From Roseivivax sp. GX 12232 (GTDB lineage Bacteria; Pseudomonadota; Alphaproteobacteria; Rhodobacterales; Rhodobacteraceae), in assembly GCF_021272185.1 (NCBI RefSeq), contig NZ_JAJSEC010000006.1, positions 186,001-250,000 of the forward strand: a DNA stretch of 64,000 nucleotides. The letters run 5' to 3'. This document shows, one piece after another, positions 4,173 through 60,385 of this stretch. How positions within the stretch are numbered: position 1 is the stretch's first letter; each line of letters begins with the position of its first letter. The notes under the pieces are model-generated. The model saw nothing but the letters and a program-made list of their open reading frames with translations, had not been told where the DNA came from and ran no database searches. The translations under genes were made by a program, and so were the position numbers.

Positions 4173-4180
4173 TGTATACC
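4173..4180. promoter_or_regulatory. GTATAC-type element upstream of GntR gene
   Basis: The sequence CCTGTATACCGG holds the self-complementary core GTATAC in an AT-rich setting. FCD-type GntR regulators such as UxuR/ExuR bind palindromes with this core. The element lies about 180 bases upstream of the GntR start and could be a distal operator. A single core by itself is weak evidence; the case rests on its recurrence through the window. Confidence 0.4.
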
Positions 4181-4304
4181 GGGATATAGCTCGGCACTTT
4201 CGGGCGACAATGTGGCTTTTTCGCGACTATGGCAAGCTTTATCGCCTTTTTCTCGCGGGTTGGCCTAAACTATTAACGTGTATTTAGCACGTTTCGACAC
4301 ACGC

Positions 4305-4331
4305 TTGACTTGCAGCGTCCAGCTGTATACA
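4305..4331 (+). promoter_or_regulatory. Promoter with overlapping TGTATACA operator for the GntR gene
   Basis: A TTGACT hexamer at 4305-4310 is followed after 15 bases by TATACA, which could serve as the -35 and -10 boxes although the spacing is short. The -10 hexamer lies inside the perfect 8-base palindrome TGTATACA at 4324-4331. A repressor bound there would block polymerase, so negative autoregulation by the adjacent GntR protein is plausible. This is inferred from sequence alone. Confidence 0.5.
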
Positions 4332-4359
4332 TGTTTTCGGCAGTTGATCTGGGAATCCC

Positions 4360-5043
4360 ATGGCCACCACAGAGCTACGCACCTACGACGATACGCTCGA
4401 TGTCGTGCTGACCAAGGTCCTGCTCGCACCCACCGACACGACAACCGTCCTGCATGAAACCGCCCTGGCCGAAGAGCTGGGCGTGTCGCGCACGCCAGTC
4501 CGTCAGGTGCTTCAGGAACTGGCCATCGCCGGGCTCGTGGAAACCCGGCCGGGCGTCGGCACGGTGATCTCTAGCCTTTATGACACCGACCGCGGCATGG
4601 CCTTCAAGGTCTACGCCGAGATCGCCACCGCCGCCGCCAATTGCTGCGTCGGCGCCAAGGTCGACGACGGCGCCAAGATCGAGATGGTCGGCCAGTCGCT
4701 GGTCGCCCAGAACACCACCGAACATTCGATGGACCTCTACGCCCGCTACGCGATCAGCATCTGCCGCTCCATGGCCTCGATCCTGCCCGACGACGTGCTG
4801 GCCCATGCGCTGACCGTGGCGCATTGGCGGGTGATCCGCTGGCGGGTGGCCGATTACGCCGCCGACCCCGACGGCTGCTGGCGCGCGCTGCAGGAGAACC
4901 TGCAGAAGGTCGTGGTGGCGATGATGCGCAACAACGCCTCCGAGACGATGCGCGTGGCCGCGGGCATCACCTCCCAGCTCGCCGAGGGCGCGCAGGAGGA
5001 CTACCCCCGCGCGGTTCCCAGCGACGCGCAGCGGATGGGCTGA
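4360..5043 (+). CDS. GntR-family transcriptional regulator
   Basis: The 227-residue protein has an N-terminal winged helix with the hallmark LAEELGVSRTPVRQVLQELA (about residues 46-65) and then GLVETRPGVGTVIS. An all-helical C-terminal domain of FCD-like length follows but is poorly conserved, with Cys pairs (ANCCVG) and AHALTVAHWRVIRWRVADY. It likely senses an organic acid or amino-acid-like ligand. It is convergent with the dipeptide-type ABC operon and divergent from the histidine kinase. A palindromic element overlaps its promoter, suggesting autoregulation. Its target operon is not certain; the adjacent ABC operon is one candidate. Confidence 0.85.
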   Translation: MATTELRTYDDTLDVVLTKVLLAPTDTTTVLHETALAEELGVSRTPVRQVLQELAIAGLVETRPGVGTVISSLYDTDRGMAFKVYAEIATAAANCCVGAKVDDGAKIEMVGQSLVAQNTTEHSMDLYARYAISICRSMASILPDDVLAHALTVAHWRVIRWRVADYAADPDGCWRALQENLQKVVVAMMRNNASETMRVAAGITSQLAEGAQEDYPRAVPSDAQRMG

Positions 5044-5050
5044 GGCCCCG

Positions 5051-5070
5051 GGCCGGGGTCTCCCCCGGCC
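5051..5070. terminator. GC hairpin between convergent GntR and ABC operons
   Basis: GGCCGGGG, a 4-base loop and CCCCGGCC form a perfect 8-bp stem just after the GntR stop and before the end of the ABC operon. There is no T run on either side, so it would be a weak intrinsic terminator at best. Confidence 0.35.
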
Positions 5071-15002: not shown

Positions 15003-15913
15003 CACTGCGCCTCCATCAGCCGGGCGGCCCCGTCGGGGTCCTGCCCGAGATACCAGTCGCCGATGCCGCTCGAGGTCAGGAAGACGGTGTCCTCCCGCGC
15101 CATGAGCAGATCGAGCGCGGCCTCGAAGAAATGCGCGATATGCGGCACGCCGATGATATGCGGGTGCAGCGCCAGGGTCATGACCCGGGGCTGCGCGGCC
15201 AGCTCGCGCTCGAAGGTGGCCAGCGTCGCCTCGACGCGCTTGAGGTATTCGTCGCTCGATCCGTTCTGGATGGCGTAGACCGGCACGTCGTTCAGCTCGA
15301 AGGTATAGGGCAGCCCGAGAAGCGGCCCGTGCTTGGTCTTCATCCAGACCGGCAGGTCGTCGAGCGCCCAGTCGTGCAGGAACTCCACGCCCTCGGACTT
15401 GAGGATGTCGGGGGTGTCCTCGCTTTCGCCGAGGCCCGGACCCAGCCAGGCGCGGGGCCTGTGGCCCGCCACCCGCTCCAGCCGGTCGAGGCTGCGGCGG
15501 ATCACGTCGGCCTCGTCCTCGGCCTGCTTCAGCGACTGCTGGAACCAGCCGTGGCCCACCAGCTCCCAGCCGGCGTCCTTCACCGCGCCCATGAGCGTCG
15601 GGTAGACGTCCGCAACCTGGGCGTTGATGAAGGCCGAACAGGGCAGCCCCTTGCGGTCGAGCATGTCGAGGATGCGCGGCATGCCGCAGCGCATGCCGTA
15701 TTCCACCCAGGAGAAATTGGGCACATCCGGCGGCGCCGGGGTGGCGCCATGCGGCGCGGGGATGATGCCGCGCGGCATGGCCCGCTCGATCGGCCAGTAT
15801 TCGATGTTCATCACGATATGGACGATCAGCGGCTTGCCGTCCGGCCCGTCGAGCGGCGCGCGGTCCGAGGACAGCTGGAAGGGGATGCGCGGATTGGAGG
15901 GCATGGGGATCAC
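15002..15913 (-). CDS. PuuE-like polysaccharide deacetylase family protein
   Basis: The 303-residue NodB-fold protein resembles the PuuE/allantoinase branch rather than sugar deacetylases. Its features are LIVHIVMNIEYWP, an internal YGMRCGMPRILDML, ELVGHGWFQQ with the metal-ligand-like His, and HPHIIGVPHIAHFFEAALD near the end. Members act on C-N bonds of ureides and related compounds, or on N-acetyl groups. It is translationally coupled to the upstream ATPase (ATGA) and overlaps the CoA-transferase start. Its place between a polyamine-type transporter and CoA enzymes hints at removal of an N-acyl or ureide group from the imported compound. That is inference. Confidence 0.82.
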   Translation of the reverse strand: MIPMPSNPRIPFQLSSDRAPLDGPDGKPLIVHIVMNIEYWPIERAMPRGIIPAPHGATPAPPDVPNFSWVEYGMRCGMPRILDMLDRKGLPCSAFINAQVADVYPTLMGAVKDAGWELVGHGWFQQSLKQAEDEADVIRRSLDRLERVAGHRPRAWLGPGLGESEDTPDILKSEGVEFLHDWALDDLPVWMKTKHGPLLGLPYTFELNDVPVYAIQNGSSDEYLKRVEATLATFERELAAQPRVMTLALHPHIIGVPHIAHFFEAALDLLMAREDTVFLTSSGIGDWYLGQDPDGAARLMEAQ

Positions 15914-17010
15914 TCCACGTGCAGGCGGATGTCGGAGGGCTTCCAGGACAGCCGCACGCGGGATCCGGCCTCGGGCAGGCGCTCGTCGCTGTCGGCGATC
16001 TCGCGGCTGACCATCTCGGTGCCGTCGGGCAGATGCACCAGGTGCGAGGTGGTCAGGCCAAGGTAGACCGACTCGTCATAGGCCCCGGTGATCGAGAAGC
16101 CGTCCGCCGGCGTCTCGGCCCCGTTCACCCGGTCGAGCGCCACGCATTCCGAACGGATCGAGAGCGTCACCTCCTGCCCGTCGCTGACCGCGAGGCCGCG
16201 CTTGTCGACCTGCAGCCGCGAGCCCGCCACGTCGACGATGATCTCGCTGCCCGCGGCCTCGGCGACGCGGCCCTTCAGCACGTTGTTCTCGCCCACGAAG
16301 CTGGCGGTGAAGGTCTTCTCCGGCGCGCGGTAGATGTCGCGGGCGCGGCCGAACTCCACCAGCTCGCCATTGGCAATGAGCGCGATCCGGTCGGCCACGG
16401 TCATCGCCTCTTCCTGGTTGTGGGTGACATGGATGAAGGTGATGCCGACCTTCTCCTGCAGGTGCTTGAGCTCGAGGCACATGTCCTTGCGGAGCTGCGC
16501 ATCCAGCGCCGCCAGCGGCTCGTCGAGCAGCAGGATGTCGCGGTCGAGCACGATGGCCCGGGCGAGCTGCACGCGCTGCTGCTGGCCGCCCGACAACTCG
16601 TGCGGACGGCGCGCGGCAAAGGGCGTGAGCCCGACCTGCTCCAGCGCCGCGGCGACCTTTTCGGCGACCTGCGCGCGCGGCAGCCCCGCGACCTTGAGCC
16701 CGTAGCCCACGTTCTGCTCCACGCTCATGTGCGGGAACAGCGCATAGGCCTGGAAGACCATGCTGGTCGGGCGCTTGTCGGGCGGCAGGTGGCCGACGCT
16801 GCGGCCATGCAGCAGCACCTCGCCATGGGTCGGCTTCTGGAAGCCGCCGATGGTGCGCAGGAGCGTCGTCTTGCCCCCGCCCGAGGGCCCGAGCAGGACG
16901 AAATACTCGCCCGCCCCGATCGAGACATTGACGTTCTGGAGCGCCACGAAGTCACCGTAGTGCTTGGCGAGGTTGCGCACCTCGACGGCGGGAGCTTGGC
17001 TGTCGGTCAT
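15910..17010 (-). CDS. Spermidine/putrescine-type ABC transporter ATP-binding protein (PotA-like)
   Basis: The 366-residue ATPase starts at MTDSQAPAVE. Walker A is GPSGGGKTT (about 41-49), the signature is LSGGQQQRVQLARA, Walker B is ILLLDEPLAALDAQ, and the H-loop is HVTHNQEEAM. A C-terminal TOBE domain carries SFVGENNVLKG and LSIRSECVAL. The overall order is typical of PotA/CUT1-like importers. It energises the two permeases encoded just upstream. The substrate is not determined by sequence; members of this group carry polyamines, opines, amino acids or organic acids. Confidence 0.92.
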   Translation of the reverse strand: MTDSQAPAVEVRNLAKHYGDFVALQNVNVSIGAGEYFVLLGPSGGGKTTLLRTIGGFQKPTHGEVLLHGRSVGHLPPDKRPTSMVFQAYALFPHMSVEQNVGYGLKVAGLPRAQVAEKVAAALEQVGLTPFAARRPHELSGGQQQRVQLARAIVLDRDILLLDEPLAALDAQLRKDMCLELKHLQEKVGITFIHVTHNQEEAMTVADRIALIANGELVEFGRARDIYRAPEKTFTASFVGENNVLKGRVAEAAGSEIIVDVAGSRLQVDKRGLAVSDGQEVTLSIRSECVALDRVNGAETPADGFSITGAYDESVYLGLTTSHLVHLPDGTEMVSREIADSDERLPEAGSRVRLSWKPSDIRLHVE

Positions 17011-17039
17011 CTGCTGGGTCCCCTGGGTCTCGATCTGGG

Positions 17040-17924
17040 TCACGATCCCACCGGCGCCGCCTTGGCGCGGGCCACGCGCGAGAGGCTCTCGGCGCGGATC
17101 ATGGTGAAAAGGATGATGGAGCCGATCACGGCGATGGCGACGAAGCTGACCATGGCGGACATGGCATAGCTTTGCGGCGACATGCCGGTGTTGAGCATCT
17201 GGCTGATCAGCACCGTGGTGAAGGTGTCGAACCCGCCCTTCAGAAGGCTCGTGCGGGTGTATTCGTTGAAGACCAGGATCACCGTGAAGGCGCAGGCCGA
17301 GAAAACACCGGCGCGGATCTGCGGGAACTCGATGTCCCAGAAGGCGCGCCAGCCGTTGGCCCCGCAGGCCCGCGCGGCCTCGGTCTGTTCGGGGCGGTAA
17401 CGGCCCATGGTGATCAGGATCACCACGAAGGAATAGGGGATCGTGTAGATGATCAGCCCGATCGTCGCGGTCAGGAAGCTCAGCCGGAACCAGCCGTCGA
17501 ACATCGCGGTGCCGAGCTGGTCGCCCAGCCAGATGAAGGCGATGTTGAGGTTCTTGAAGGACACCAGGAGCGCCGAGCCCAGGATGTCCGGCGGCACGAA
17601 CAGCGGCGCCAGCAGCAGGAAGACCGGGAAGATCTTGTTGCCCGCCGACTTGTAGTGCTTGGCCGCCAAGAGCGCCATCGGCACGGTGATCACGGTCACC
17701 ACCACCGCCAGCATCAGCGTCCAGCGCAAGGCGCCGATCAACAGCTCGTCCGAGAAGATCAGCCCGTACCACTCGAGCGTGAAGACATATTCGTTCGCGC
17801 CGAAACCGTTGGCGTTGAACGAGACATACATGACGTAGAGGACCGGGGTCATCAGCGTCAGCACCACGAAGAGCAGGTAGGCCCACTTCAGGCGATGCAG
17901 CCAGGGATTGTCGTAGTCGTTCAT
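17040..17924 (-). CDS. Spermidine/putrescine-type ABC transporter permease (PotC-like)
   Basis: The 294-residue inner-membrane protein begins MNDYDNPWLHRLKWAYLLF and shows about six hydrophobic helices. The EAA loop is recognisable as EAARACGANGWRAFWDIEFP. The FNANGFGANEYVFTLEWY region after the first helix is typical of PotC. It lies 10 bases after the PotB-like gene and 29 bases before the ATPase. Confidence 0.92.
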   Translation of the reverse strand: MNDYDNPWLHRLKWAYLLFVVLTLMTPVLYVMYVSFNANGFGANEYVFTLEWYGLIFSDELLIGALRWTLMLAVVVTVITVPMALLAAKHYKSAGNKIFPVFLLLAPLFVPPDILGSALLVSFKNLNIAFIWLGDQLGTAMFDGWFRLSFLTATIGLIIYTIPYSFVVILITMGRYRPEQTEAARACGANGWRAFWDIEFPQIRAGVFSACAFTVILVFNEYTRTSLLKGGFDTFTTVLISQMLNTGMSPQSYAMSAMVSFVAIAVIGSIILFTMIRAESLSRVARAKAAPVGS

Positions 17925-17934
17925 GCGCGCGCCC

Positions 17935-18849
17935 TCAGCTCAGCGGGGTGAGGATCTTGGTGAGATCGAAAAGCCGGTGCCCGATCCACAGAAGCGTCAT
18001 CAGGGTGGCCATCATGATCGCGCTCACCGCCATGGCGAGCGGGAAGTCGAGCGCGGTGATCGCCTGCGTGGCGATCAGCCCGGCGTTCACGGCCCCCGCC
18101 CCGCCCAGGATGTTCGGCAGCAGCGCCACGCCCAGCCCGTTGACGAAGATGAAGACCGAGCCCGCGAAGATCCCCGGCGCCGCGAGCGGCAGGATCACGT
18201 CCTTGAAGCGCCGCCAGGGGCCGACGCCCAGGTCGTCGCAGACCTCGAAGATGTATTTCGGCACCGCCTCCATCGCGAGGAAGCCCGAGAAGACGATGAA
18301 GGGCAGGAAGGACAGCACCTCGCCGATCACCACCCCGGTATGGGTGTAAAGAAGCGCCGTGATCGGCTCGTCGATGATGCCCAGGTCCATCAGCGTGGTG
18401 TTCACCAGCCCGTTGCGCTGCAGGACCGGGCGCAGGGCGAAGACGCGGATGATCTCGGAGACCATGAAGGGCAGGATGAACAGCAGCACCACTCGGTGCT
18501 GCGCCACCTGCGGGATCGACTTGCGCACGAAGACCGCGATGGGGAAGCCGAAGACGAAGCAGATCGCCACCGAGATCAGCGAGTATTTCATCGAGTTGAG
18601 GAAGTTCGTCAGCCGTGCCGAGAAGAAGAAGTTCTCGTAGGAGAACAGGGTGAAGCCCGGCTCCATCCAGAACATCGTGCGCTCGAAGACCGAGAAGACC
18701 ACGGTCATCGCCATCGGCAGGGCGAAGAAGATCACCATGAAGATCAGCGGTGCGCGGAAGACCCAGGGCACCAGCCGCTCGCGCCAGGGGGGCGTGGTCC
18801 GGTCGACGGGACGTGCCCCGCCGACCGTTTCTGTGCTTTGCACCGCCAT
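17935..18849 (-). CDS. Spermidine/putrescine-type ABC transporter permease (PotB-like)
   Basis: The 304-residue permease has VFRAPLIFMVIFFALPMAMT as first helix, SARLTNFLNSMKYSLISVAI, and an EAA-type loop around EVCDDLGVGPWRRFKDVILP followed by LAAPGIFAG. The chosen ATG (MAVQSTE) leaves 5 bases after the binding protein stop. An in-frame start ten codons upstream would overlap that gene and lacks support. It forms the channel with the PotC-like subunit. Confidence 0.92.
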   Translation of the reverse strand: MAVQSTETVGGARPVDRTTPPWRERLVPWVFRAPLIFMVIFFALPMAMTVVFSVFERTMFWMEPGFTLFSYENFFFSARLTNFLNSMKYSLISVAICFVFGFPIAVFVRKSIPQVAQHRVVLLFILPFMVSEIIRVFALRPVLQRNGLVNTTLMDLGIIDEPITALLYTHTGVVIGEVLSFLPFIVFSGFLAMEAVPKYIFEVCDDLGVGPWRRFKDVILPLAAPGIFAGSVFIFVNGLGVALLPNILGGAGAVNAGLIATQAITALDFPLAMAVSAIMMATLMTLLWIGHRLFDLTKILTPLS

Positions 18850-18854
18850 GTGGA

Positions 18855-20018: not shown

Positions 20019-20365
20019 GCGAACTCTCCTGTTGGTTGGGCCCGCCGACCAGCCGGCAGGGTGGATCGTCTGTCCCGATCGTCTTGCCCCAATGGCATGG
20101 CGGCCGATCTTCGCGGCCGCCGGGCGGCCCGGTTCAGGCCGGACACGCCCTTGCTCTTGCCATCGAGTATGTCCCGAAACGGCGTGATTGCAAAATTTTT
20201 TTGTATGCAGAATGAAGATTCCTGCAAGCTGCTGAAAATCATTGCGAAATATGTGGGGCCCGCCCAAGAACATGCGATTCCAGCGTTATATGCAGGCTCA
20301 TGGCGCTTGATCTGCACGCAGAATCGGGGCAATCCTGAGGGTGTATAGCGGATTTTGTATGCGAA
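20019..20365. other. Divergent regulatory region between the PotD-like and PrpD-like operons
   Basis: This 347-base gap has no gene. The half near the PotD-like gene is GC-rich; the centre (about 20185-20300) is AT-rich with runs of T and A. It contains a GTATGC element toward each operon, listed separately, and several copies of a TGCA...GCAGAAT type sequence (for example near 20311-20325). The two operons are probably controlled together from here. Confidence 0.6.
20201..20213. promoter_or_regulatory. GTATGC-type element facing the PotD-like operon
   Basis: TTGTATGCAGAAT follows a run of T residues. It shares GTATRCAGAATG with a site at 51024-51035, next to a thiolase gene 30 kb away, and shares TTTTGTATGC with the sites at 20352 and 28069. 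A GntR-type operator is inferred. Confidence 0.5.
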
Positions 20366-20367
20366 AT
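20352..20367. promoter_or_regulatory. 16-base operator candidate at the PrpD-like gene start
   Basis: ATTTTGTATGCGAAAT is repeated exactly at 28069-28084, upstream of the GntR/FCD gene. Here its last two bases are the first two of the PrpD-like ATG, so a bound repressor would cover the start of the gene. No Shine-Dalgarno sequence is visible before that ATG. A shared 16-base sequence at an operon and at a nearby regulator gene is good evidence for control of both by one protein. Confidence 0.65.
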
Positions 20368-23701: not shown

Positions 23702-23702
23702 C

Positions 23703-24557: not shown

Positions 24558-24576
24558 CATTGCAGGAGACGACGAG

Positions 24577-26116: not shown

Positions 26117-27286
26117 TCAGAGCCGCGCGAGGATCTCTTCGGCAAGCGCCACCAGACGGCGCTCACTGCCTTTCGGCCCGACCAGCTGCGCCGAGACCGG
26201 CGGCTGCGCCCCGGGGGCGGGCAGCGCCAGCGCCGGGCAGCCCGCGACATTGGCCATGACGGTGAAATCCGCCTGCCCCCGCGGCGGGCGGCCCCCGAGC
26301 GGGAAGGCCGGCTCCGCCACCGTGGGCAGAAGCGCCACGCGCGGGCCCTCGAGGGCGGACTGCACGGCGGATGCGGTCTCCGCGAGCGACGCGCGGATCG
26401 CGCGGGCCTTCTCCTCCGGGATCGCCGCGCCGTAGTCGATGAGCTTGCGCAGCCCCGGGCTGAGGCCGGGCACGCCGCCGAGGCTCTGGGCCGCCTCGAT
26501 CTCGGTCAGCAGGAAGGCGGTGCCGCGCAGCTCTTCGAAGTCCATGGGCGGCAGCGGGTCGGACGGGCCGAGGGAGGCGCCGAGCGCATCGCGGCAGGCG
26601 TCATAGAACGCTTGGACCTCGGGCGTGCAGCCCGCCAGCTGCGCCGCGTCCGGCGCGTACCAGCCGAGGGGCGTCGCCGCGCGGGTCTCGGGCAAAAGCA
26701 CATCCAGCAGCGCCGTCAGCCCATCCGCATCCCGCGCGAAGATCCCCGGCGCATCGAGGCTCGGCGCCAGCGGGAAGAGCCCCGCATCGGACACCGCCCC
26801 CGCGCCGAACTTCAGCCCGAAGACCCCGCAATAGGCCGCCGGGATGCGCACCGAACCCATGGTGTCGCTGCCAAGTGCGAGGTCCACCGCCCCCGCCGCC
26901 AGCGCTGCCGCCGAGCCGCCCGAGGAGCCACCCGGCGAATGCCCGGGCCAGGCCGGGTTCTCGCAGCGGGTGAAATGCGGGTTGTCGCAGGCCGCCCCCA
27001 GCGCGCCCTCGTCCATGGAAAGCCGCGACAGGATGCGCGCCCCCGCGCCGCGCAGCCGCGCCACCAGCGGCGCATCGGCCTCGGCCAGCTCGCCCGCGCG
27101 CGCGCCGATGCCAGCGGTCCAGGCCTGGCCCGCGACCCGGAAGTTGGACTTCGCCCCGAGGGTCAGGCCCGCCAAGGGCCCCGCTCCCGGCGCCTTGGCC
27201 GCATCCAGCGGCAGCGAGACCTCGGGCGCCTCGCAAAAGCCCCAGCGGGTCGCGCGCGCGGCGATCTCCTCGAAGGGCAGGCTCAC
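26117..27286 (-). CDS. Amidase signature family amidase
   Basis: The 389-residue enzyme begins at a GTG that overlaps the regulator's stop as GTGA; an upstream open extension lies inside the regulator gene. The Lys-cisSer-Ser triad is present: Lys in GAKSNF (about 46), cis-Ser in PGGSSGGSAAALAAG (about 121-122) and nucleophile Ser in SDTMGSVRIPA (about 145). DTMGS replaces the usual DTGGS. It is a short member without N- or C-terminal extensions. Next to MatB it resembles the malonamidase-plus-malonyl-CoA-synthetase pairing known in rhizobia, so malonamate or a related amide is a reasonable but unproven substrate. Confidence 0.88.
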   Translation of the reverse strand: MSLPFEEIAARATRWGFCEAPEVSLPLDAAKAPGAGPLAGLTLGAKSNFRVAGQAWTAGIGARAGELAEADAPLVARLRGAGARILSRLSMDEGALGAACDNPHFTRCENPAWPGHSPGGSSGGSAAALAAGAVDLALGSDTMGSVRIPAAYCGVFGLKFGAGAVSDAGLFPLAPSLDAPGIFARDADGLTALLDVLLPETRAATPLGWYAPDAAQLAGCTPEVQAFYDACRDALGASLGPSDPLPPMDFEELRGTAFLLTEIEAAQSLGGVPGLSPGLRKLIDYGAAIPEEKARAIRASLAETASAVQSALEGPRVALLPTVAEPAFPLGGRPPRGQADFTVMANVAGCPALALPAPGAQPPVSAQLVGPKGSERRLVALAEEILARL

Positions 27287-27972
27287 GCCCCGTCCTTCGC
27301 CTGTTGCGAGCTTTGAATATGCGTCGCCACCCGCGAGGCCCCGGCCAGGAGATGCGCCGACATGACGCTGGAGGCCCATTCCGGCGAGCGCGCCTCGATG
27401 GCGTCGATGATCTCGGCGTGGTGGTGCAGGCTGCGCCGCAGGTCGTGTTCGGAGAACATCGAATAGGTGCGCACCACCATGCTGACATCCAGCACAGTGG
27501 TCATCAGCGCCGTCAGCCGCGGCGAGCGTGCGGCATTCACGATGGTGCGGTGAAATTCCTCGTTGGCGGTGACCAGCACCTGGTAGGCACTGTCGTCACG
27601 CGGCGGGGTGTTGGCCTGCATGACCGCGTGGATGCGGCGCAGCTCGGCCAGGTCCTCCTCGGTCGCGAGCCGCGCGGCGCGCTGGACCGAGTAGCATTCG
27701 ACCAGGCGGCGGATCTCGTAGACCTGTTCGGCCTCGTCCTCGGGGAAATAGGCGACCCTGGTGGTATAGCCGCTTTGCCGGTCGATGAAGCCCTCGAGAA
27801 TGAGCCGCCCGATGGCCTCGCGGATCGGTGTCCGGCTGAGGCCCAGGTCCTCGGAGAGCCGCGTCTCGGTCAGCCGCTCGCCCTCTTCGAGCTTGCCGGT
27901 CAGGATGTCGCGGCGGATGATCTGGTAGGCCTGCTCGGTGGCGTTCATCTTCGGCTGGGCAGCGGCTGTCAT
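27283..27972 (-). CDS. GntR/FCD-family transcriptional regulator
   Basis: The product, about 229 residues, starts at MTAAAQPKMN; longer and shorter starts are possible and no strong ribosome-binding site decides. The winged helix has LSEDLGLSRTPIREAIGRLI (about residues 36-55) and GFIDRQSGYTTRVAYF. The FCD ligand domain shows VYEIRRLVECYSVQRAA, ANEEFHRTIVNAA and HHHAEIIDAIEAR, with Asp/His residues that usually bind a metal and a carboxylate ligand. Its promoter region has ATTTTGTATGCGAAAT, the same 16 bases as at the PrpD-like operon, so it probably represses that operon and itself. It is coupled to the amidase. Confidence 0.92.
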   Translation of the reverse strand: MTAAAQPKMNATEQAYQIIRRDILTGKLEEGERLTETRLSEDLGLSRTPIREAIGRLILEGFIDRQSGYTTRVAYFPEDEAEQVYEIRRLVECYSVQRAARLATEEDLAELRRIHAVMQANTPPRDDSAYQVLVTANEEFHRTIVNAARSPRLTALMTTVLDVSMVVRTYSMFSEHDLRRSLHHHAEIIDAIEARSPEWASSVMSAHLLAGASRVATHIQSSQQAKDGA

Positions 27973-28068
27973 GGGGCGCGGATCCGTGCTGAAAGCGCGC
28001 CCGGGACGGCGCAAGAAAGCGTGCCGCCGCGCCGCCGGATGGACGGCCCGAGGCGGAGCGCGGGTAGT

Positions 28069-28084
28069 ATTTTGTATGCGAAAT
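28069..28084. promoter_or_regulatory. 16-base operator candidate upstream of the GntR/FCD gene
   Basis: ATTTTGTATGCGAAAT lies about 97 bases before the regulator ATG and is identical to 20352-20367 at the PrpD-like gene. The flanks differ, so the match is a discrete site and not a duplication. It supports autoregulation and co-control of the divergent hydratase/ligase operon. Confidence 0.65.
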
Positions 28085-28225
28085 CCGGGATGTGGTCAAA
28101 GGGCTTTGTCGGGGTTGGGTGGCGTGGCATGAGCGGCCGGGAGGGAGATACCCAAGCAGTGCTGGCGATTGCCCTGCCGCCCGCCGTTTGCGCCGCAACG
28201 CGGCAAGGTTTGGGCGCGACACTCC

Positions 28226-28239
28226 TGTGTATCCAGAAC
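28226..28239. promoter_or_regulatory. GTATCC-type element
   Basis: TGTGTATCCAGAAC shares the 11 bases TGTATCCAGAA exactly with the site at 42197-42209 upstream of the ferredoxin gene. It probably belongs to the same operator family as the GTATAC and GTATGC elements. Confidence 0.4.
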
Positions 28240-28430
28240 GGCTCATTTTGATCCAGCGGCGTCCGCGAGAGCGGGTCGGATACCAGCCGCATCATCCCCG
28301 CAGGCGGCGCGCAGAGCCCACCCGTTGGACCGCCGCTGTTCCAAAAGCCCCCGATGCCACGCTATGTGCGTGCATTTGTTCCTGCCACGGGCGGCCGAAA
28401 GGCCCCGCAAGCGCACACAGGCTTACCCTA

Positions 28431-28442
28431 TTTGCATACACA
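28431..28442. promoter_or_regulatory. GTATGC-type element (reverse orientation) before the split-hydratase operon
   Basis: TTTGCATACACA reads TGTGTATGCAAA on the other strand. It lies about 190 bases before the first hydratase subunit start. It could mediate repression of the rightward hydratase/ligase operon by the adjacent GntR/FCD regulator. Confidence 0.4.
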
Positions 28443-28632
28443 TGCGCCTCATCTGCATATTGACAGATACCTCTATTCACACAATGATCGCCCCACCCAT
28501 CACCTCTCACCCGCGCGTCACACCCCTACCGCGCGGCTTCTAGACCGCGCGCCACGCGCCACGGAAGGTCTCGCCTCATGCCCCTACGCCCCTGCTCTGC
28601 CAGCACGGCCCTCGGACCCGGCGCCTGACCTC

Positions 28633-38574: not shown

Positions 38575-38591
38575 GTCATCCACCAATTGAG

Positions 38592-38642
38592 CAGGGTTCT
38601 ACCCTGTCTTTCCGGTGAGGCGCGGCACCGGGGCGCCGCGCC
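38592..38642 (-). other. Paired hairpins between LivJ-like and LivH genes
   Basis: Two inverted repeats lie in the 81-base gap after the binding protein gene: CAGGGT/ACCCTG with a 3-base loop (38592-38606) and GGCGCGGC/GCCGCGCC with an 8-base loop (38619-38642). No T run follows either. Such hairpins commonly protect the binding-protein mRNA or partly attenuate transcription so that it exceeds permease mRNA. Confidence 0.5.
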
Positions 38643-38655
38643 GTCTTTCCAAGGA

Positions 38656-39798: not shown

Positions 39799-40088
39799 GT
39801 CTTCCTCCCTATAAACAGCCGTGCACTCTGTCCGCTTTTCGCTAGGATCGGGCTGACGGCCATGCCATTCCCACATCTTTGTATTAGCGAGTTGGTCATA
39901 AATATACACACTGATCAATGAATTTCTGTCGCGCCGCGGCGCAGCAATGTGGCGTTCACGGCACGCCGCACCCCTCCCGACCCCCTGTAAACACGCGCCA
40001 AACCCAAGCCAGGCTGAGGCTTTTGGAGAATTGCTCTTGTATACGGAGCGAGTGTTTTTCATACTCAAAAAGCCAGGGAGGGCTGATC
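39799..40088. promoter_or_regulatory. Divergent promoter region with several GTATAC-like elements
   Basis: The AT-rich 290-base gap between the leftward transport/beta-oxidation operon and a rightward ligase gene contains four candidates: CTTTGTATTAGCGA (39877-39890), ATAAATATACACAC (39898-39911), TTGTATACGGAGCG (40037-40050) and the symmetric TTTTTCATACTCAAAAA (about 40055-40071). TGTATACGGA recurs at 51185-51194. No gene lies here. Confidence 0.5.
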
Positions 40089-42165: not shown

Positions 42166-42194
42166 GGCGTCCTCCTCTGCTGGCTTTCAGGATT

Positions 42195-42229
42195 AATGTA
42201 TCCAGAAAACACCGTCAACGCATACAATC
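42195..42229. promoter_or_regulatory. Paired operator-like elements upstream of the ferredoxin gene
   Basis: TGTATCCAGAAAA at 42197-42209 and GCATACAATC at 42220-42229 (reverse of GATTGTATGC) flank TTGACG on the minus strand, which could be a -35 box with TAATCC 17 bases downstream as -10. The second element overlaps the VOC gene stop codon. They share sequence with sites at 28226 and 20201. Confidence 0.5.
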
Positions 42230-46573: not shown

Positions 46574-47542
46574 ATGGCGGCGGATGCGCAGGACAGGCCC
46601 AGAGTATCGGAACGGCAGGGCCTCGCGGGTCTGCTGGGCTCGATTGCGGGAGACCACCCCGATCGCCCGGGGCTGACCGACGGCGAGACCAGCCTGACCT
46701 GGGGCGCGGTCGCCGAAGCCGTGCGCGCCGGCAGGGGGCCAGCCACGGGGGCTTTGGGCCGGGTGCTTGAGGTGCTCGGCGAGCTGGGCTCGGGCAGCGT
46801 CGTCCGTTTCGGCGATGCCACGGATCCGCTGTCCGGCCAAAGCGACATGGGCTTCGCGATCGAGCGGGACGGCGCGCACGAGGTGCTCTGCCATGCCTCC
46901 GCTGACGCCGCGCATCTCGGTGCCGCGCTGGCCCGGCGCGAGGCGCTCACGGCGGACGACCGCGTCGCGCTGGCCGCCCGGCCCGAGGACCCGGGGTTCT
47001 GGCCGGTCCTGGCCGCCTGCCTGGCCTCGGGCGCGCAGCTCGACCTGTCGGCTGAGCTCAAGGCGGCGACGACCGCTTGGCTGCTCGAGCCCGGGGCCGT
47101 CGCGGACTACCGCCCCGCCCCCGGGCTTGCGCGGCTGCATCTGCGCACCGGGCGCGCGCACCTCACCGAGGTCGCCGAAGCCCTGCCCGGCACGCGGCTC
47201 GTCAACGGGCTGACCCTGCCCGAGACCTTCGGCCTGGCGCTGACCAGCGACCCGCGCGACCCCGCGGCGACCGTCGTGGCCACCTGTGGACGCCCGCTCG
47301 GCGGGATCGAGGTCATGGTGGTCGATCCCCGCACCGGCATGGACGTGCTGCTCTATCAGACCGGCGAGGTCTGGCTGCGCGGCGCGGGCGTGTTCCAGGG
47401 ATACGCCGGACGCCCCGGCGCGGGCTTCACCGATCGGTTCTTCCGCACCGGCGTTCTGGGCCATCTCGACAGCGAGGGCCGGCTGGTGCTGCCCGAGGTC
47501 GAGGAAGTGGCGCTGGTCCGCAGCTGGTCGCTGCCGGACTGA
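46574..47542 (+). CDS. Truncated, catalytically degenerate acyl-CoA ligase-like protein
   Basis: The intact 322-codon frame resembles AMP-forming ligases (usually 490-550 residues) but lacks key parts. An N-terminal DHPDRPGLTDGETSLTWGAV (about 27-46) and later NGLTLPETFG (211-220), GRPLGGIEVMVVD (239-251), GEVWLRGAGVFQGY (264-277) and FFRTGVLGHLD (289-299) align with ligase motifs. The ATP-binding SGTTGxPK loop is absent, the ribose-binding Asp of the TGD motif is Val, and the protein ends before the hinge and C-terminal Lys domain. AGGGAAG precedes the start and an operator-like element lies upstream. It may be a regulatory or CoA-ester-binding pseudoenzyme, or a decaying gene with an intact frame. 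Confidence 0.75.
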   Translation: MAADAQDRPRVSERQGLAGLLGSIAGDHPDRPGLTDGETSLTWGAVAEAVRAGRGPATGALGRVLEVLGELGSGSVVRFGDATDPLSGQSDMGFAIERDGAHEVLCHASADAAHLGAALARREALTADDRVALAARPEDPGFWPVLAACLASGAQLDLSAELKAATTAWLLEPGAVADYRPAPGLARLHLRTGRAHLTEVAEALPGTRLVNGLTLPETFGLALTSDPRDPAATVVATCGRPLGGIEVMVVDPRTGMDVLLYQTGEVWLRGAGVFQGYAGRPGAGFTDRFFRTGVLGHLDSEGRLVLPEVEEVALVRSWSLPD

Positions 47543-50968: not shown

Positions 50969-51238
50969 AGCCGGATCTCCTGCCCCGTTCCGCCGTCATA
51001 TCGGTCGCTCCTCCTGCCGACCCGTATACAGAATGCGCGCATTGTGTGTAAAGAAGGCAATTTCCGTATTCAGAGATATGCTCGATATTTGTGAGCCTTT
51101 ACAGGCAAATAGAGACGCGTCACGCGCCACGCCACGCAATCCCACCTGGTTTTGGCTTGCCAATGGACAGAAAGACCGTTTCTGTGTATACGGAAAGACA
51201 GCGGCCGGTACGGGCCAACTGACATGGGAGGAAAAGGC
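50969..51238. promoter_or_regulatory. Divergent promoter with three operator-like elements
   Basis: Between the thiolase and SDR operons lie GTATACAGAATG (51024-51035), CGTATTCAGAG (51065-51075) and TGTGTATACGGAAAG (51183-51197). The first matches 20204-20215 in 11 of 12 bases, the second shares CGTATTCAGA with 56035-56044, and the third shares TGTATACGGA with 40038-40047. The gap is AT-rich and contains no gene. Confidence 0.6.
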
Positions 51239-55879: not shown

Positions 55880-55894
55880 CGCCCCTCCTGCTGG

Positions 55895-55908
55895 GTATAC
55901 TTATACAA
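55895..55908. promoter_or_regulatory. GTATAC/TATACAA element upstream of VOC gene 2
   Basis: GTATAC at 55895-55900 is followed 2 bases later by TATACAA, giving a close tandem of the motif in both reading directions. It lies between the leftward VOC/SDR operon and the rightward GntR/FCD gene, together with the element at 56035. Confidence 0.55.
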
Positions 55909-56034
55909 CTTCAATGGAATACAATGCAAAGCAATTCACGGTGCCGCAGGCGCCTGCCTGGCTGAAAACCGTGCCGGAGATGTTGCAACCCTAGGGGCGA
56001 TCGTGCAGGGGCGGCGCAATTTTCTGGAAATGCA

Positions 56035-56044
56035 CGTATTCAGA
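56035..56044. promoter_or_regulatory. GTATTC-type element upstream of the second GntR/FCD gene
   Basis: CGTATTCAGA is identical to a 10-base stretch at 51065-51074 and is followed by CTGGTATGAC. It lies about 65 bases before the GntR/FCD ATG. Self-regulation by this protein is plausible. Confidence 0.45.
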
Positions 56045-56103
56045 CTGGTATGACTAAAAACACGGAAGCTGATCCACTGGACTTCGGAAAGGGCTGGTAG
56101 CCG

Positions 56104-56790
56104 ATGGCGAAAACTTCGGGCATGACACACGCGCAAACCGTGCGGCTGGCACTGGAAGACGACATCTTCGCCGGCCGGCTGGCCCCCGGGGCCTCGCTGG
56201 ACGAAGAGGCGCTGGCGCGGCGCTTCTCGGTCTCGCGGACGCCGGTGCGCGAGGCGATGCTGCAGCTCATCCAGTCCGGGCTGGTCGAGAAACGCCCGCG
56301 CCAGGGCGCGATCGTGGCGCAGATCGACCTGTCGGACATGATCCGGCTCTTCGAGGTGATGTCCGAGCTCGAGGGCATCTGCGCCAAGTTCGCCGCCCGC
56401 CGCATGACCCCGCAGGAGCGCACCGACCTGCGCAAGCTGCACGAGGCCTCCGAGGCGGCTTTCAAGGCCGGGCGCGAGGACGAATATTACCACCTCAGCC
56501 GCAAGTTCCACCTCATGGTGATCGAGGGCACGCACAACCACGAGCTGATCGAGACCACCAATCGGCTGGGCATCAAGCTGGTGCCCTACCGGCGCTTCCA
56601 GCTCTCCTACCCGGGCCGCTCCGAGAACAACCTGCGCGACCACGAGAAGATCATGGAAGCGATCTGCGGCGGCGAATACGAGCTCGCGGCCGAGCTCTTC
56701 CGCAAGCACACCAACGTGCAGGGAGATGTGCTGGCGGAGTATATCGCGCTTGGCGACCGCGAGGCGCTGCGGGCCAACGCCGCCGGTTAA
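56104..56790 (+). CDS. GntR/FCD-family transcriptional regulator
   Basis: The 228-residue regulator has a winged helix with LARRFSVSRTPVREAMLQLI (about residues 37-56) and then GLVEKRPRQGAIVAQID. The FCD domain has FEVMSELEGICAKFAARRM, YYHLSRKFHLMVIEGTHN and RDHEKIMEAICGGE with the usual metal-binding Asp/His positions. It is embedded in the Rieske-oxygenase region and is the best candidate for controlling the GTATAC/GTATTC promoters from 40 to 60 kb. GGAAAGG precedes the start. Confidence 0.93.
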   Translation: MAKTSGMTHAQTVRLALEDDIFAGRLAPGASLDEEALARRFSVSRTPVREAMLQLIQSGLVEKRPRQGAIVAQIDLSDMIRLFEVMSELEGICAKFAARRMTPQERTDLRKLHEASEAAFKAGREDEYYHLSRKFHLMVIEGTHNHELIETTNRLGIKLVPYRRFQLSYPGRSENNLRDHEKIMEAICGGEYELAAELFRKHTNVQGDVLAEYIALGDREALRANAAG

Positions 56791-58283: not shown

Positions 58284-58284
58284 C

Positions 58285-59298
58285 TCACACTCCATCCATG
58301 GCGCGGCGGATCGCGGCTTCGATATCGGCGGGGCTGGGCACATACATGCGCTCCAGCTCTCGGGCGAAGGGCACGGGTGTATGCGGCGCAGTCACCTTCT
58401 GAACCGGCGCGCGCAGGCTCTTGAACCCGCGCGAGGCGGCGAGCCCGGCGATCTCCGAGGCGATGGAGCAGACGGGATTGGACTCGTCGACCACCACCAG
58501 CCGCCCTGTGAGCGAGAGGCTTTCCAGCACCGCCTCCTCGTCGAGCGGCGAGGTCGTGCGCAGGTCGATCAGGTCGCAGCTGATGCCCTCGGCGGCGAGC
58601 TTGTCGACCGCCTTCATGGCGAAGGGCACCATGCGCGCCAGCGCCACGACGGTCACATCCGAGCCCTCGCGCAGAAGCGCGGCCTCGCCGAAGGGGGTCA
58701 GCAGCTCGCCCTCGGGCACCTCGCCCTTCTTGGAATAAAGCGCCTTGTGCTCGAAGAAGACCACCGGGTCGTCGTCGCGGATGGCCTGTTTCATCAGGCC
58801 CTTGGCGTCGGCGGGGTTGGAGGGCACGACCACCTTGAGGCCCGGCACCATGGTCAGCATCGGATAGATCGTCTGGCTGTGCTGGGCGGCGGCGTTCATG
58901 CCCGCGCCCATGGACATGCGCAGCACGACCGGGGTCTTGGCCTTGCCGCCGAACATGTAGCGGAACTTGGCCATCTGGTTGAAGATCTGGTCGAGCGAGA
59001 CCCCGACGAAATCCGCGAACATCAGCTCGGCCACCGGCCGCATGCCGGCCAACGCCGAGCCGTTGGCCAGGCCCACGATCGCGCTTTCCGAGATCGGCGT
59101 GTCGATCACCCGGTCGCCGCCGAACTTGGTCTTGAGCCCCTTGGTCACGCCGAAGATGCCGCCCGCGGCCTCGGGGTTGCCCGAGCTGCCGCCCGAGCCG
59201 CCGGCCACGTCCTCACCCATGACGATGACGCTCTGGTCGCGCTCCATCTCTTCGTGCAGCGCCTGGTTCAGCGCGTCGCGCATTGTCATTTCAGCCAT
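58285..59298 (-). CDS. 2-oxoacid dehydrogenase E1 beta subunit (acetoin/pyruvate type)
   Basis: The 337-residue transketolase-fold subunit has DQSVIVMGEDVAGGSGG, GGIFGVTKGLKTKFGGDRVI, DTPISESAIVGLANGSALAG and GAGMNAAAQHSQTIY, which contribute to the active site with E1 alpha. The C-terminal domain has VVVDESNPVCS and TAPHTPVPFA. It pairs with the upstream alpha subunit. FGVTKGL and DTPISE are the usual acetoin/pyruvate-type signatures but do not decide between substrates. Confidence 0.93.
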   Translation of the reverse strand: MAEMTMRDALNQALHEEMERDQSVIVMGEDVAGGSGGSSGNPEAAGGIFGVTKGLKTKFGGDRVIDTPISESAIVGLANGSALAGMRPVAELMFADFVGVSLDQIFNQMAKFRYMFGGKAKTPVVLRMSMGAGMNAAAQHSQTIYPMLTMVPGLKVVVPSNPADAKGLMKQAIRDDDPVVFFEHKALYSKKGEVPEGELLTPFGEAALLREGSDVTVVALARMVPFAMKAVDKLAAEGISCDLIDLRTTSPLDEEAVLESLSLTGRLVVVDESNPVCSIASEIAGLAASRGFKSLRAPVQKVTAPHTPVPFARELERMYVPSPADIEAAIRRAMDGV

Positions 59299-59309
59299 AA
59301 CGCGCCCTC

Positions 59310-60275
59310 TCAGTAGTCGATGTAGACGTCGGACATCAGGATCTCGGCGTCCGGCGTGGGCCCGCTGCGGGCGCTTTCGACGCTGGCCTCGATCTGGGCG
59401 AGGACCTCTTCGTCGATCTTGTCGAGTTCCTCGGCGGTGAAGATGCCCGCCCCAGTGACCTTCTCGCGGATGCGCATCAGCGCGTCCTTGGTCTCGCGGA
59501 AGGTCTTCACCTCGTCCTTGGCGCGATAGGCCTGCGGGTCGCCCTCGAAATGGCCGAAATACCGCGTCGCGGTGGCCAGGATGGCGCTTGGACCTTTGCC
59601 GGACCGGGCGTGTTCCACGGCTTGGCTGGCGGCTTCGTATACAGAGAAGTAGTCAAAGCCGTCCGCCTCCCAGACCGGGATGCCGAAACCCTCGGTGCGG
59701 GTCTTCAGCTCGCCGCCGATGCCGTAGCTCGCGCCGGTGTGTTCGGAATAGCCGTTGTTCTCGAGCACGAAGACCTTGGGCAGCTTCAGCACCACCGCCA
59801 TGTTCATCGCCTCGAAGACGGTGCCCTGGTTCGAAGCGCCGTCGCCGGTGAAGCTGACCGAGACCGAGCCGTCGCCGCGCGCCTTGCAGGCCACCGCGGC
59901 GCCCACCGCGATCGGCTGGCCGCCGCCCACGATGCCATTGGCGCCCAGCATGCCACGGTCCAGATCGGCAATATGCATTGAGCCGCCGCGGCCTTTGCAG
60001 AGCCCGTCGGCGCGGCCGTAGATCTCGTGCATCATGCCCTTGGGGTCGCAGCCGCGCGCCAGGCAGTGGCCGTGTCCGCGGTGGGTGGAGATGATGTAGT
60101 CGCTGTCGCGCAGGGTCTCGCAGACGCCGACGGCGATGGCCTCCTGGCCGGCGTAGAGATGGGTGAAGCCCGCGATCTCTCCCTTGGGGTTCTCGACGTG
60201 CAGGCGTTCCTCGAACTCGCGGATCAACCGCATCTGCCGATAGGCCTGCCGGATCTGGTCCGGGTTTTGCTGCAT
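59310..60275 (-). CDS. 2-oxoacid dehydrogenase E1 alpha subunit (acetoin/pyruvate type)
   Basis: The 321-residue thiamine-diphosphate subunit starts MQQNPDQIRQAYRQM after GGGAGGAG. It has the ThDP motif GDGASNQGTVFEAMNMA at about 154-170 ending in LENNGYS, HRGHGHCLARG and the GGSMHIADLDRGMLGANGIV region. It is short and lacks the long N-terminal extension of mitochondrial-type enzymes, like AcoA-type subunits. The three genes E1 alpha, E1 beta and E2 are tightly spaced; E3 is encoded at 47.6 kb. A GTATACAGAGAAG sequence lies inside this gene at 59637-59649. Confidence 0.93.
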   Translation of the reverse strand: MQQNPDQIRQAYRQMRLIREFEERLHVENPKGEIAGFTHLYAGQEAIAVGVCETLRDSDYIISTHRGHGHCLARGCDPKGMMHEIYGRADGLCKGRGGSMHIADLDRGMLGANGIVGGGQPIAVGAAVACKARGDGSVSVSFTGDGASNQGTVFEAMNMAVVLKLPKVFVLENNGYSEHTGASYGIGGELKTRTEGFGIPVWEADGFDYFSVYEAASQAVEHARSGKGPSAILATATRYFGHFEGDPQAYRAKDEVKTFRETKDALMRIREKVTGAGIFTAEELDKIDEEVLAQIEASVESARSGPTPDAEILMSDVYIDY

Positions 60276-60326
60276 TGTCTCCTCCCTAGCCGCCCAACAA
60301 CGTCAGACTTTCCGCATTTTCAGCGA

Positions 60327-60385
60327 TTGCATATACCCATCTCAGATTTTTGTGTATATGAAAAGGTATAGTTTTGTATTCACAG
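60327..60385. promoter_or_regulatory. Divergent promoter with three TATAC-like elements
   Basis: Between the E1-alpha and acyl-CoA dehydrogenase genes lie TTGCATATACC (60327-60337), TTTTTGTGTATATGAAAA (60347-60364) and TTTTGTATTCACAG (60372-60385). TATAGT at 60367-60372 could be the rightward -10 box. The 126-base gap is the most AT-rich in this region. Confidence 0.55.

Follow-up and report, generated by a model that had tools for sequence, protein, structure and literature searches.

The GTATAC-type palindrome that recurs along the window (the whole 64,000-nucleotide stretch of Roseivivax sp. GX 12232 DNA that was analysed) is a real element, and sequence comparison suggests that two related FCD repressors, each controlling one of two adjacent catabolic gene sets, bind there. 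The whole explanation, in which two FCD regulators are matched by two operator dialects, the palindromes of the second gene set (module B) are paired and repression is cooperative, is given a probability of roughly 0.7. The motif, its clustering, its conservation, its spacing and the split into two modules and two dialects belong to what was observed.

The element and its enrichment

Palindromic motif discovery in 22 noncoding regions of the window, with the number of sites fixed beforehand at 20, returned TTnTGTATACAnAA with a score of 202 vs 133-139 in five shuffles; these regions were hand-picked with the list of the first-pass annotation known, and some stretched into predicted ORFs with apparently too-early starts. 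A mixture-model search without a site-number limit gave low-information AT-rich patterns, and the fixed-number search was used instead. Of the core GTATAC the window has 9 copies, where 100 dinucleotide shuffles average 0.59 and never exceed 3; GTATNC is present 58 times, against a shuffle mean of 28.5. Many GTATTC copies sit within coding DNA and are uninformative by themselves. Outside gene calls, which were our own, GC-frame based and with the first 60 bases of every gene treated as outside, 6 GTATAC copies were counted in 9.3 kb of the window vs 2 in 49.2 kb of 17 background stretches chosen by the analyst at regular coordinates. The 4.12-Mb genome holds 58 copies altogether, and the 9 in the window correspond to a post hoc binomial p of 2.8e-7; two further copies lie immediately beyond the right end of the window. 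With 2 mismatches allowed, TCTGTATACAGA is less frequent genome-wide than its reversed control (24 vs 35), so the consensus is not enriched across the genome and local clustering alone is left. A modest association with FCD genes is seen: 6 of the 50 listed GTATAC sites (58 in all) lie within 2 kb of one (expected 1.06), or 5/39 listed sites when contig C35 is excluded (expected 0.79).

The claim that the element marks nearly every divergent promoter held well: between 4 and 60.4 kb, none of the 9 divergent regions lacks a site, and in 8 the score is at least 11 bits, vs 1/31 in background divergent regions (before scoring, the divergent regions of window and background alike were extended by 90 bp per side). 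The weakest of the nine is the Gly/FCD56104 region, with a best site of 10.1 bits. Five non-divergent window regions gave no score above 6.0 bits, and a non-divergent region with a site lies upstream of the ferredoxin gene (42194). Recognisable copies were found at every position that the first-pass annotation had listed, some of them weak by the matrix (0.4 bits at 42216, 6.0 at 39898, 6.8 at 55891, below 5 at 56032), and the longer strings reported as shared are exact: TGTATCCAGAA at 28228 and 42197, TGTATACGGA at 40038 and 51185, CGTATTCAGA at 51065 and 56035, and a 16-mer at 20352 and 28069. The 22-bp tandem regularity, the site within the E1-alpha gene (59633-59646) and the continuation beyond the window had been overlooked. 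A reading by eye of AT-rich intergenic DNA could turn up such an element by chance, the more so as coding DNA often contains looser forms like GTATTC; for the palindrome, this explanation is contradicted by the shuffle, background and cross-species tests, and its probability is practically negligible. The comparison with background, which had been proposed as a check, showed the core enriched over background noncoding DNA and the sites enriched over background divergent regions.

Candidate regulators

Three GntR-family genes had been named in the window. All three are GntR-type, and only two of them (P0002 and P0003) are FCD regulators by Pfam. The remaining one and the sites beside it are as follows.

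4170..4183, GTATAC site 1 of the HK2178/GntR4360 divergent region, 9.4 bits
4276..4289, weaker site of 9.7 bits at a distance of 45 bp from 4321..4334
4321..4334, GTATAC site 2 of the HK2178/GntR4360 region, 12.2 bits
4360..5043, plus strand, GntR-type regulator (GntR4360, P0001), GntR domain by Pfam

In P0001 Pfam matched the GntR domain alone at E<=1e-5 and no FCD domain; of the 147 genomes searched, the other 146 gave no homologue at E<=1e-25. The scan that scored the three sites counts overlapping matches as separate hits. The sites at 4170 and 4321 match neither module A nor module B.

With Pfam cut-offs of 24.3 for FCD and 27 for GntR, P0002 scores 102.2 and 54.6 bits and P0003 scores 89.4 and 62.1 bits, respectively. 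The Roseivivax genome carries 20 FCD genes. Arg45, Thr46 and Arg49 of P0003 (numbered as in the Atu1419 alignment) are invariant across 28 aligned sequences, and its predicted operator is palindromic with a TGTATACA core. The metal-site pattern of one Asn and three His was located by pattern matching only: H136, H180 and H202 are invariant, and residue 132 is Ser vs the consensus Asn. In the monomer model 8 residues precede the first helix of the protein, and helices are placed at 76-100, 103-121, 125-141, 146-167, 172-188 and 192-203, plus a partly low-confidence one at 207-227. FCD domains have six helices in the VanR type vs seven in the FadR type. For AlkR, six were described (PMC12042122).

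The proposal of a GTATAC-type FCD/GntR operator is probably right as to the family, and its UxuR/ExuR model is borne out only in part. According to PMC4494728, the GT-AC gap is 2 nt in UxuR sites and 3 nt in ExuR sites; the 2-nt gap of GTATAC matches UxuR and not ExuR, and several other groups likewise have 2 nt. A search of P0002 and P0003 against NCBIfam at E<=1e-10 returned no UxuR or ExuR model and none above cut-off, in a library which may hold none.

Two modules and two dialects

The sites of module A and its predicted regulator are listed below. The module contains an ABC transporter, PrpD-like, SDR, MaoC, CoA ligase and CoA transferase genes.

20199..20212, predicted module A operator, SBP side, TTTTGTATGCAGAA, by motif and dialect
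20353..20366, predicted module A operator, PrpD side, TTTTGTATGCGAAA, its last base being the first of the predicted ATG
27283..28014, minus strand, predicted FCD/GntR regulator of module A (P0002), FCD 3.4e-29
28070..28083, predicted module A operator in front of the P0002 gene, by motif and dialect
28225..28238, site CTGTGTATCCAGAA, 155 bp from 28070
28430..28443, site ATTTGCATACACAT, upstream of, or within the start of, orf28354

Module B comprises CoA ligases, Rieske oxygenases, ferredoxin, thiolase, enoyl-CoA hydratase, E1/E2/E3 2-oxoacid dehydrogenase and acyl-CoA dehydrogenase.

39877..39912, SBP side of the SBP/CoA-ligase region, two copies in tandem at 22 bp, the second weak
40035..40070, CoA-ligase side of that region, two copies in tandem at 22 bp
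42194..42229, upstream of the ferredoxin gene, two copies in tandem at 22 bp, the second very weak at 0.4 bits
42764..42799, glyoxalase/Rieske region, two copies in tandem at 22 bp, the first weak at 2.7 bits, alternative partner at +20 bp 5.2 bits
46518..46553, site and weak partner, SDR/truncated AMP-binding region, 3.2 bits at 22 bp and 5.1 at 20 bp
51020..51075, predicted triple tandem operator, thiolase/SDR region, spacings 22 and 20 bp
51182..51195, predicted distal operator, 120 bp from the third copy of 51020..51075
55891..55926, glyoxalase/FCD56104 region, two copies of 6.8 and 5.2 bits in tandem at 22 bp
56032..56045, distal site below 5 bits, its distance to the second copy of 55891..55926 being 119 bp
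56104..56790, plus strand, predicted FCD/GntR regulator of module B (P0003), FCD 3.1e-25, orthologues found
59633..59646, operator-like site within the E1-alpha coding sequence, codons TCT GTA TAC GAA
60327..60385, predicted triple tandem operator, E1-alpha/acyl-CoA dehydrogenase region, spacings 23 and 22 bp

The two modules are found separately in relatives, and P0002 orthologues co-occur with module A. No match to P0002 at E<=1e-20 was obtained in 7 module-B genomes, and none to P0003 at E<=1e-40 in the module-A genomes G005, G043 and G032. Gene content of relatives was compared by tblastn with 51 query proteins; one of these, the SBP at 38659, had been taken in a wrong reading frame, so that its results are unreliable here and in the comparisons with the six other genomes and with L189. 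The loci L060-L068 entered this tblastn only, and L149-L151 entered none of the comparisons. The operators also differ, TTYTGYATRCARAA in module A vs TTnTGTATACAnAA in module B; with site numbers fixed beforehand at 20 and 60, inner C/G occupies 20/40 half-positions in A vs 4/120 in B, a contrast whose p-value, like the pair counts given below, overstates independence because orthologous regions share ancestry. It was suggested earlier that the genes form one regulon or two overlapping ones. Separate occurrence and dialects favour two regulons, adjacent, with distinguishable operators and separate regulators; all the sites are probably not one regulon.

A single regulator (that at 56104) governing every site, with A and B as one regulon, would account for the similar core and for the 28225 site, which lies in the module A region and has a B-like core (GTATCC). 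Such an arrangement is nevertheless quite improbable, since module A sites persist in genomes without P0003 orthologues, B sites persist in genomes without P0002, and the dialects differ. With two regulators, P0002 would control module A through TTYTGYATRCARAA sites and P0003 would control module B through TTnTGTATACAnAA sites.

Tandem spacing across genomes

Module B sites stand in tandem at about 22 bp, that is two DNA turns, and do so likewise in six other genomes. In 26 orthologous regions scored with the window-trained matrix, 37 pairs fall at 19-25 bp, 4 at 26-32, 3 at 33-39 and 15 at 40-46, and shuffles of these regions (n=100) gave a mean of 0.87 and a maximum of 4 pairs at 19-25 bp. 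Two divergent regions have an additional distal site about 120 bp off. The spacings of 51020..51075 are identical in L069, L071, L087 and L189 and come in the order 20 then 22 in Palleronia (L070), and in the held-out genome L189 the spacings 22-20-121, 23-22 and 141 recur. The weak distal site at 56032 has stronger counterparts in L069 and L071. In Sinisalibacter the aligned distal copy of the glyoxalase/FCD56104 region is lost, in Roseibacterium (L073) the array is only partly present, and in G028 the promoter of the P0003 counterpart reaches only 6.4 bits. Alignments of five or six species show conserved operator blocks separated by less conserved spacers. The copy inside E1-alpha, 633 bp into the coding sequence, is retained via two rare codons in 5/6 close species and is missing in Palleronia, Roseibacterium, Alsobacter (L074) and G028.

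The regularity extends to some of the distant FCD homologues (38-59% identical), for which 50 non-redundant promoters were assembled from 53 loci minus 3 near-identical ones; the locus of the window itself and its close orthologues at L026, L173 and L174 were excluded from the set. A site of at least 11 bits is present in 35/50 and absent from 15/50, a count made without shuffle control. At 6 bits 21 pairs lie at 19-25 bp, 15 of them at exactly 21, and the next three 7-bp bins hold 6, 3 and 9; 60 shuffles gave a mean of 0.97 and a maximum of 5 pairs at 19-25 bp. Such a pair is present in 16/50 promoters and absent from 34/50. In a separate sample of 69 homologue promoter regions (51 of 80 P0003-homologue loci and 18 of 20 further loci) a site of at least 11 bits occurs in 24, where 2.25 were expected. 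When own promoters were considered (all 80 P0003-homologue loci minus 2 with short upstream DNA), an 11-bit site and a 20-23 bp pair were found in 5/8 and 3/8 at 60% identity or more, and each in 2/10 at 38-59%. Among homologues 30-37% identical to P0003 the site (at least 11 bits) occurs in 9/60 and the pair in 0/60, so the tandem rule is not general to FCD regulators.

It is conceivable that the copies are sigma-70 hexamers, because a 17-bp spacer puts -35 and -10 starts 23 bp apart and would mimic the 22-bp tandem, and TTTACA-like strings occur in some copies. The motif, however, is palindromic over 14 bp, its core is found only twice in the 49.2 kb of background noncoding DNA, distant homologues peak at exactly 21 bp, one copy lies deep inside E1-alpha, and 0 consensus promoters were found in three scanned regions (a small number, and by a scan that suits E. 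coli-like promoters only), all of which makes promoter hexamers a very improbable source of the pattern.

Proposed mechanism and known systems

Which protein binds, that it represses and does not activate, its cooperativity, the looping and the inducer are inferred by us from sequence. In module B each palindrome appears to have one or two partners 20-23 bp away, a distance that would place two or three dimers on the same DNA face; these, or a dimer of dimers, would bind cooperatively, with the promoters covered. Repression may also involve a DNA loop closed by the distal copies (~120 bp) and the copy within E1-alpha, on the model put forward for the Atu1419 tetramer. Release of the repressor would come from an intermediate of catabolism, perhaps an acyl-CoA. 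By analogy with Atu1419, cooperative repression by FCD dimers or tetramers is likely. Several findings count against the overall explanation: a number of tandem partners score low (those at 42216, 42764 and 46540), the promoter of the P0003 gene itself is the weakest of the nine divergent regions, most promoters of distant homologues lack a pair, and the sites at 4170 and 4321 fall outside both modules.

Each copy might instead be occupied by an independent dimer, the repeats merely increasing local occupancy with no cooperativity or looping. Atu1419 on its single palindrome, and earlier GntR regulators described as dimers (PMC7797058), speak for this; against it, the copies keep to a tight distance (20-23 bp in B, with a mode of 21 bp among distant homologues) while spacers diverge, which suggests that the distance itself is selected, and strong-plus-weak pairing would fit recruitment. 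Independent binding is considered rather unlikely.

The systems below are compared through the accessible parts of the cited papers. Atu1419 of Agrobacterium fabrum (PMC7797058), a VanR-type FCD regulator which contacts DNA through Arg45, Thr46 and Arg49 and has the site ATGTATACAT, is a better parallel than UxuR/ExuR. It shares with the system described here the TGTATACA core, the FCD domain, these three residues, catabolic targets, the pairing of distant sites in a divergent promoter and the presence of a weaker site within a target gene; in Atu1419, however, the sites are 190 and 109 bp apart and no 21-22 bp tandem is described in the parts consulted. The match of its PDB chain to P0003 is limited to residues 4-103 (E 5.2e-12). 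AlkR of Pseudomonas aeruginosa (PMC12042122) likewise belongs to the VanR-type FCD repressors; it acts on a catabolic gene until long-chain acyl-CoA releases it, has two weaker extra sites beside the main palindrome and is a tetramer on one fragment by ITC, but its core is ATTGTCAGACAAT, it has a single strong site and it is a dimer in solution. In the GntR-type NanR of E. coli (PMC8012715) multiple dimers assemble cooperatively on repeated sites; these are GGTATA repeats with adjacent dimers about half a turn round, and cooperativity depends on a 32-residue N-terminal extension, in contrast to the 8 residues of P0003 and to complete palindromes separated by two turns. BusR of Streptococcus agalactiae (PMC8517857) also combines a GntR-type winged helix with two fixed-distance sites on one DNA face and a spacing ruler, but it has an RCK_C effector domain with a coiled coil, not FCD, and its 22 bp are the gap between short motifs, three turns altogether. 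The nearest precedent is that of Suvorova et al. (PMC4494728), who described additional half-sites, 7-12 nt away from the centre, as well as divergons with double sites; no statement of the tandem rule, whole or in part, turned up in the passages of open-licence PMC papers that were consulted.

Significance

The targets of the two regulators are predicted over ~50 kb of acyl-CoA and oxygenase catabolism. With 20 FCD genes in one genome and similar FCD operator cores, the avoidance of cross-talk is not obvious, and conserved two-turn pairing vs single sites with another inner base in the neighbouring module would let specificity by spacing be tested concretely and at low cost. It is tentatively proposed, at somewhat less than even odds, that a subclade of FCD/GntR regulators reads a spacing code, in which two or three TGTATACA palindromes 21-22 bp apart would be bound by a linear dimer-of-dimers and distal or intragenic copies would loop. 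If this is true, spacing would be a general specificity layer separating co-resident FCD regulators with nearly the same core.

The recurring element

On re-checking against the sequence, the positions and repeated strings listed by the first-pass annotation proved correct, and the recurring element is real and better ordered than was described there. The window spans positions 186001-250000 of contig C35 (255,605 bases). In the genome (4.12 Mb, 38 contigs) GTATAC is scarce, with 58 copies versus 264 for the reversed control; nine of the 58 fall inside the window, and two further copies are located at C35:251146 and 252134. Noncoding DNA holds six copies in 9.3 kb of the window versus two in 49.2 kb of background. 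When a 14-bp palindrome was sought in 22 hand-chosen noncoding window regions, tTnTGTATACAnAa was found with 20 sites and a score of 202.4, versus 133-139 for five dinucleotide shuffles of the same regions. At ≥11 bits the matrix gives 21 matches in the window; 17 background stretches average 1.7 per 64 kb, and the 40 kb left flank has none (overlapping matches are included). Training on the window makes the window count partly circular, which does not apply to the counts from background and from other species. The association with divergent promoters, claimed earlier by eye, also holds, since sites occur in all nine divergent window regions (eight at ≥11 bits); in the background, one of 31 divergent regions has a site. 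Five non-divergent window regions reach at best ≤6.0 bits, the exception among non-divergent regions being the site at 42194, before a ferredoxin gene. On contig C7 of G000, four more GTATAC copies cluster around a different FCD gene (C7:24415; copies at 17298-25106, in locus L060) and may mark a further regulon of this type.

Two modules and their predicted regulators

Comparison of 51 window proteins (one cut out of frame) with relatives' loci by tblastn divides the window into modules A and B. Module A comprises:

13815, CoA transferase
15002, deacetylase-like
15910-20273, ABC transporter
20366, PrpD
SDR, MaoC and CoA ligase
27283, FCD regulator (P0002)

Within the stretches compared, module A and its operators are present in genomes G005 and G007 and partly in G043 and G032. 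Module B extends from about 28.4 kb to past the window end; parts of it around the FCD gene at 56104 (P0003) were found in a Maritimibacter MAG, Palleronia abyssalis, Anianabacter salinae, Sinisalibacter aestuarii, G028 and G624, and a less complete set in Roseibacterium and Alsobacter. Among the named relatives the closest module B regulators are those of Maritimibacter, Palleronia, Anianabacter and Sinisalibacter, all Rhodobacteraceae. In seven module B genomes no match to P0002 was obtained at E≤1e-20; as a positive case, the same query matches five genomes besides its own. P0003 has none at E≤1e-40 in G005, G043 and G032, and its one match in G007 (39% identity) we take for a paralogue. 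Because the modules and their regulators occur separately in relatives, A and B seem to have separate regulation and to be neighbours in this genome.

The predicted operators also differ. Separate searches gave tTcTGcATgCAgAa for module A (10 regions, 20 sites) and TTttGTATACaaAA for module B (33 regions, 60 sites). Beside the outer G, 20 of 40 half-positions have C (mirror G) in module A, versus 4 of 120 in B (Fisher p 5.6e-11, too small a value, as orthologous sites are not independent). The last base of one module A operator (20353-20366) is also the A of the predicted ATG of PrpD, and in G005 the operator likewise adjoins the PrpD match (L053 11851); the leader may be very short, or translation may begin later.

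Three GntR-family genes had been annotated in the window. By Pfam, P0002 and P0003 have GntR and FCD domains; P0001 (4360-5043), whose gene adjoins two GTATAC sites, matches GntR alone. Of 147 genomes searched, the other 146 gave no P0001 homologue at E≤1e-25. No NCBIfam model scored above cut-off for any of the three.

Two further features concern module B. At 31044-40068, genes for 3-hydroxyacyl-CoA dehydrogenase and a branched-chain-type ABC transporter break the order known from G028, where a TIM-barrel gene stands directly between two CoA ligases; the matrix scan found no operator in the HCDH upstream region. An AMP-binding ORF of 322 aa (46574-47542), adjoining a predicted operator, matches the Pfam model solely at its end (302-383) and seems to be a short or degenerate CoA-ligase-like gene; 244 residues of matching sequence occur in G028 (L052 2576-3280).

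Spacing of paired putative operators

Copies in module B are spaced 20-23 bp apart, several partner copies being weak:

39877/39899, tandem
40035/40057, tandem
42194/42216, tandem
42764/42786, tandem
46518/46540, tandem
51020/51042/51062, triple
55891/55913, tandem
60327/60350/60372, triple
L006 2107/2130, tandem, past the window end

With the window-trained matrix at ≥5 bits, 26 orthologous noncoding regions contain 37 pairs at 19-25 bp, followed by 4 (26-32), 3 (33-39) and 15 (40-46); 100 shuffles of these regions give a mean of 0.87 pairs at 19-25 bp (maximum 4). Aligned copies form conserved blocks, CTTTACATGTATAT and TATTGTATACC being identical in all five species of one alignment; in a second (the 55891-56045 region) blocks are less well kept and Sinisalibacter is without the distal one. 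In G624 (L189), held out until last, spacings of 22-20-121 and 23-22 recur. A distal copy at 119-124 bp occurs in two divergent regions, in the window from 51062 to 51182 and from 55913 to 56032, the 56032 copy scoring <5 bits.

Beyond the module, 50 non-redundant regions were sampled upstream of genes for FCD homologues that share 38-59% identity with P0003. A site of ≥11 bits was present in 35 and a pair at 19-25 bp in 16; at 6 bits there were 21 pairs at 19-25 bp, 15 of them at exactly 21 bp; the three 7-bp bins that follow had 6, 3 and 9, and 60 shuffles gave a mean of 0.97 at 19-25 bp (maximum 5). A second, less favourable sample of P0003-homologue loci gave, at 38-59% identity, a site in 2/10 and a 20-23 bp pair in 2/10; at ≥60%, 5/8 and 3/8; at 30-37%, 9/60 and 0/60. 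From both samples, two-turn pairing seems to characterize part of one group and not FCD regulators at large. That an FCD subclade reads a spacing code (palindromes two turns apart, a dimer of dimers, distal or intragenic loops) is given a probability of about 0.40, lowered from 0.45 because of the second sample.

Intragenic sites

59633-59646, operator-like site CTTCGTATACAGAG inside the E1-alpha gene, codons TCT GTA TAC GAA

Among the genes called in the window, TCT and GTA are used for 2.4% of Ser and 1.9% of Val residues, respectively, and this pair supplies two of the four rare-set codons of the gene. All four site codons are identical in five of six close species (the window, L069, L071, L087 and L189); Palleronia, the sixth, has different ones, as do Roseibacterium, Alsobacter and G028, which are more distant. 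Where any two of the six species share residues, 61-73% of the codons are identical, depending on the pair. As another rare codon of the gene, TCA at residue 99, is also kept (3/4), such conservation is suggestive and falls short of proof. A further GTATAC at 40130-40135, 91 bp from the 40039 copy, is a possible second intragenic operator: with 40089 taken as the start of the CoA-ligase gene (our choice), it would lie about 41 bp into the coding sequence.

Comparison with Atu1419 and proposed mechanism

The AlphaFold2 model of P0003 (mean pLDDT 87) has a wHTH followed by an all-helical domain, and an alignment of 28 sequences shows no variation at R45, T46 or R49. In the excerpted account of Atu1419 (PMC7797058), Arg45, Thr46 and Arg49 contact DNA, Arg45 reading the guanine of ATGTATACAT; the protein is a tetramer, and looping is proposed between sites 190 bp apart, and also between a site and a weaker one within the target gene at a distance of 109 bp. 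In module B, the copy inside E1-alpha and the distal copy at about 120 bp resemble that arrangement; tandem 21-22 bp pairs are not described in those excerpts.

Most likely, FCD dimers would occupy the strong copy, and a bound dimer would help another to bind the weaker copy, which faces the same side of the DNA two turns further along; the resulting array would most likely block the promoters between divergent operons, and distal copies may add a loop. Release of the repressor by a pathway acyl-CoA is a guess by analogy with AlkR, as excerpted from PMC12042122.

The spacing rule was not found in the excerpts of open-licence PMC literature searched. Judged from sequence, the element is predicted to represent the operators of a pair of FCD regulons, in itself ordinary in kind; the apparently new part is the spacing rule of the paired operators.
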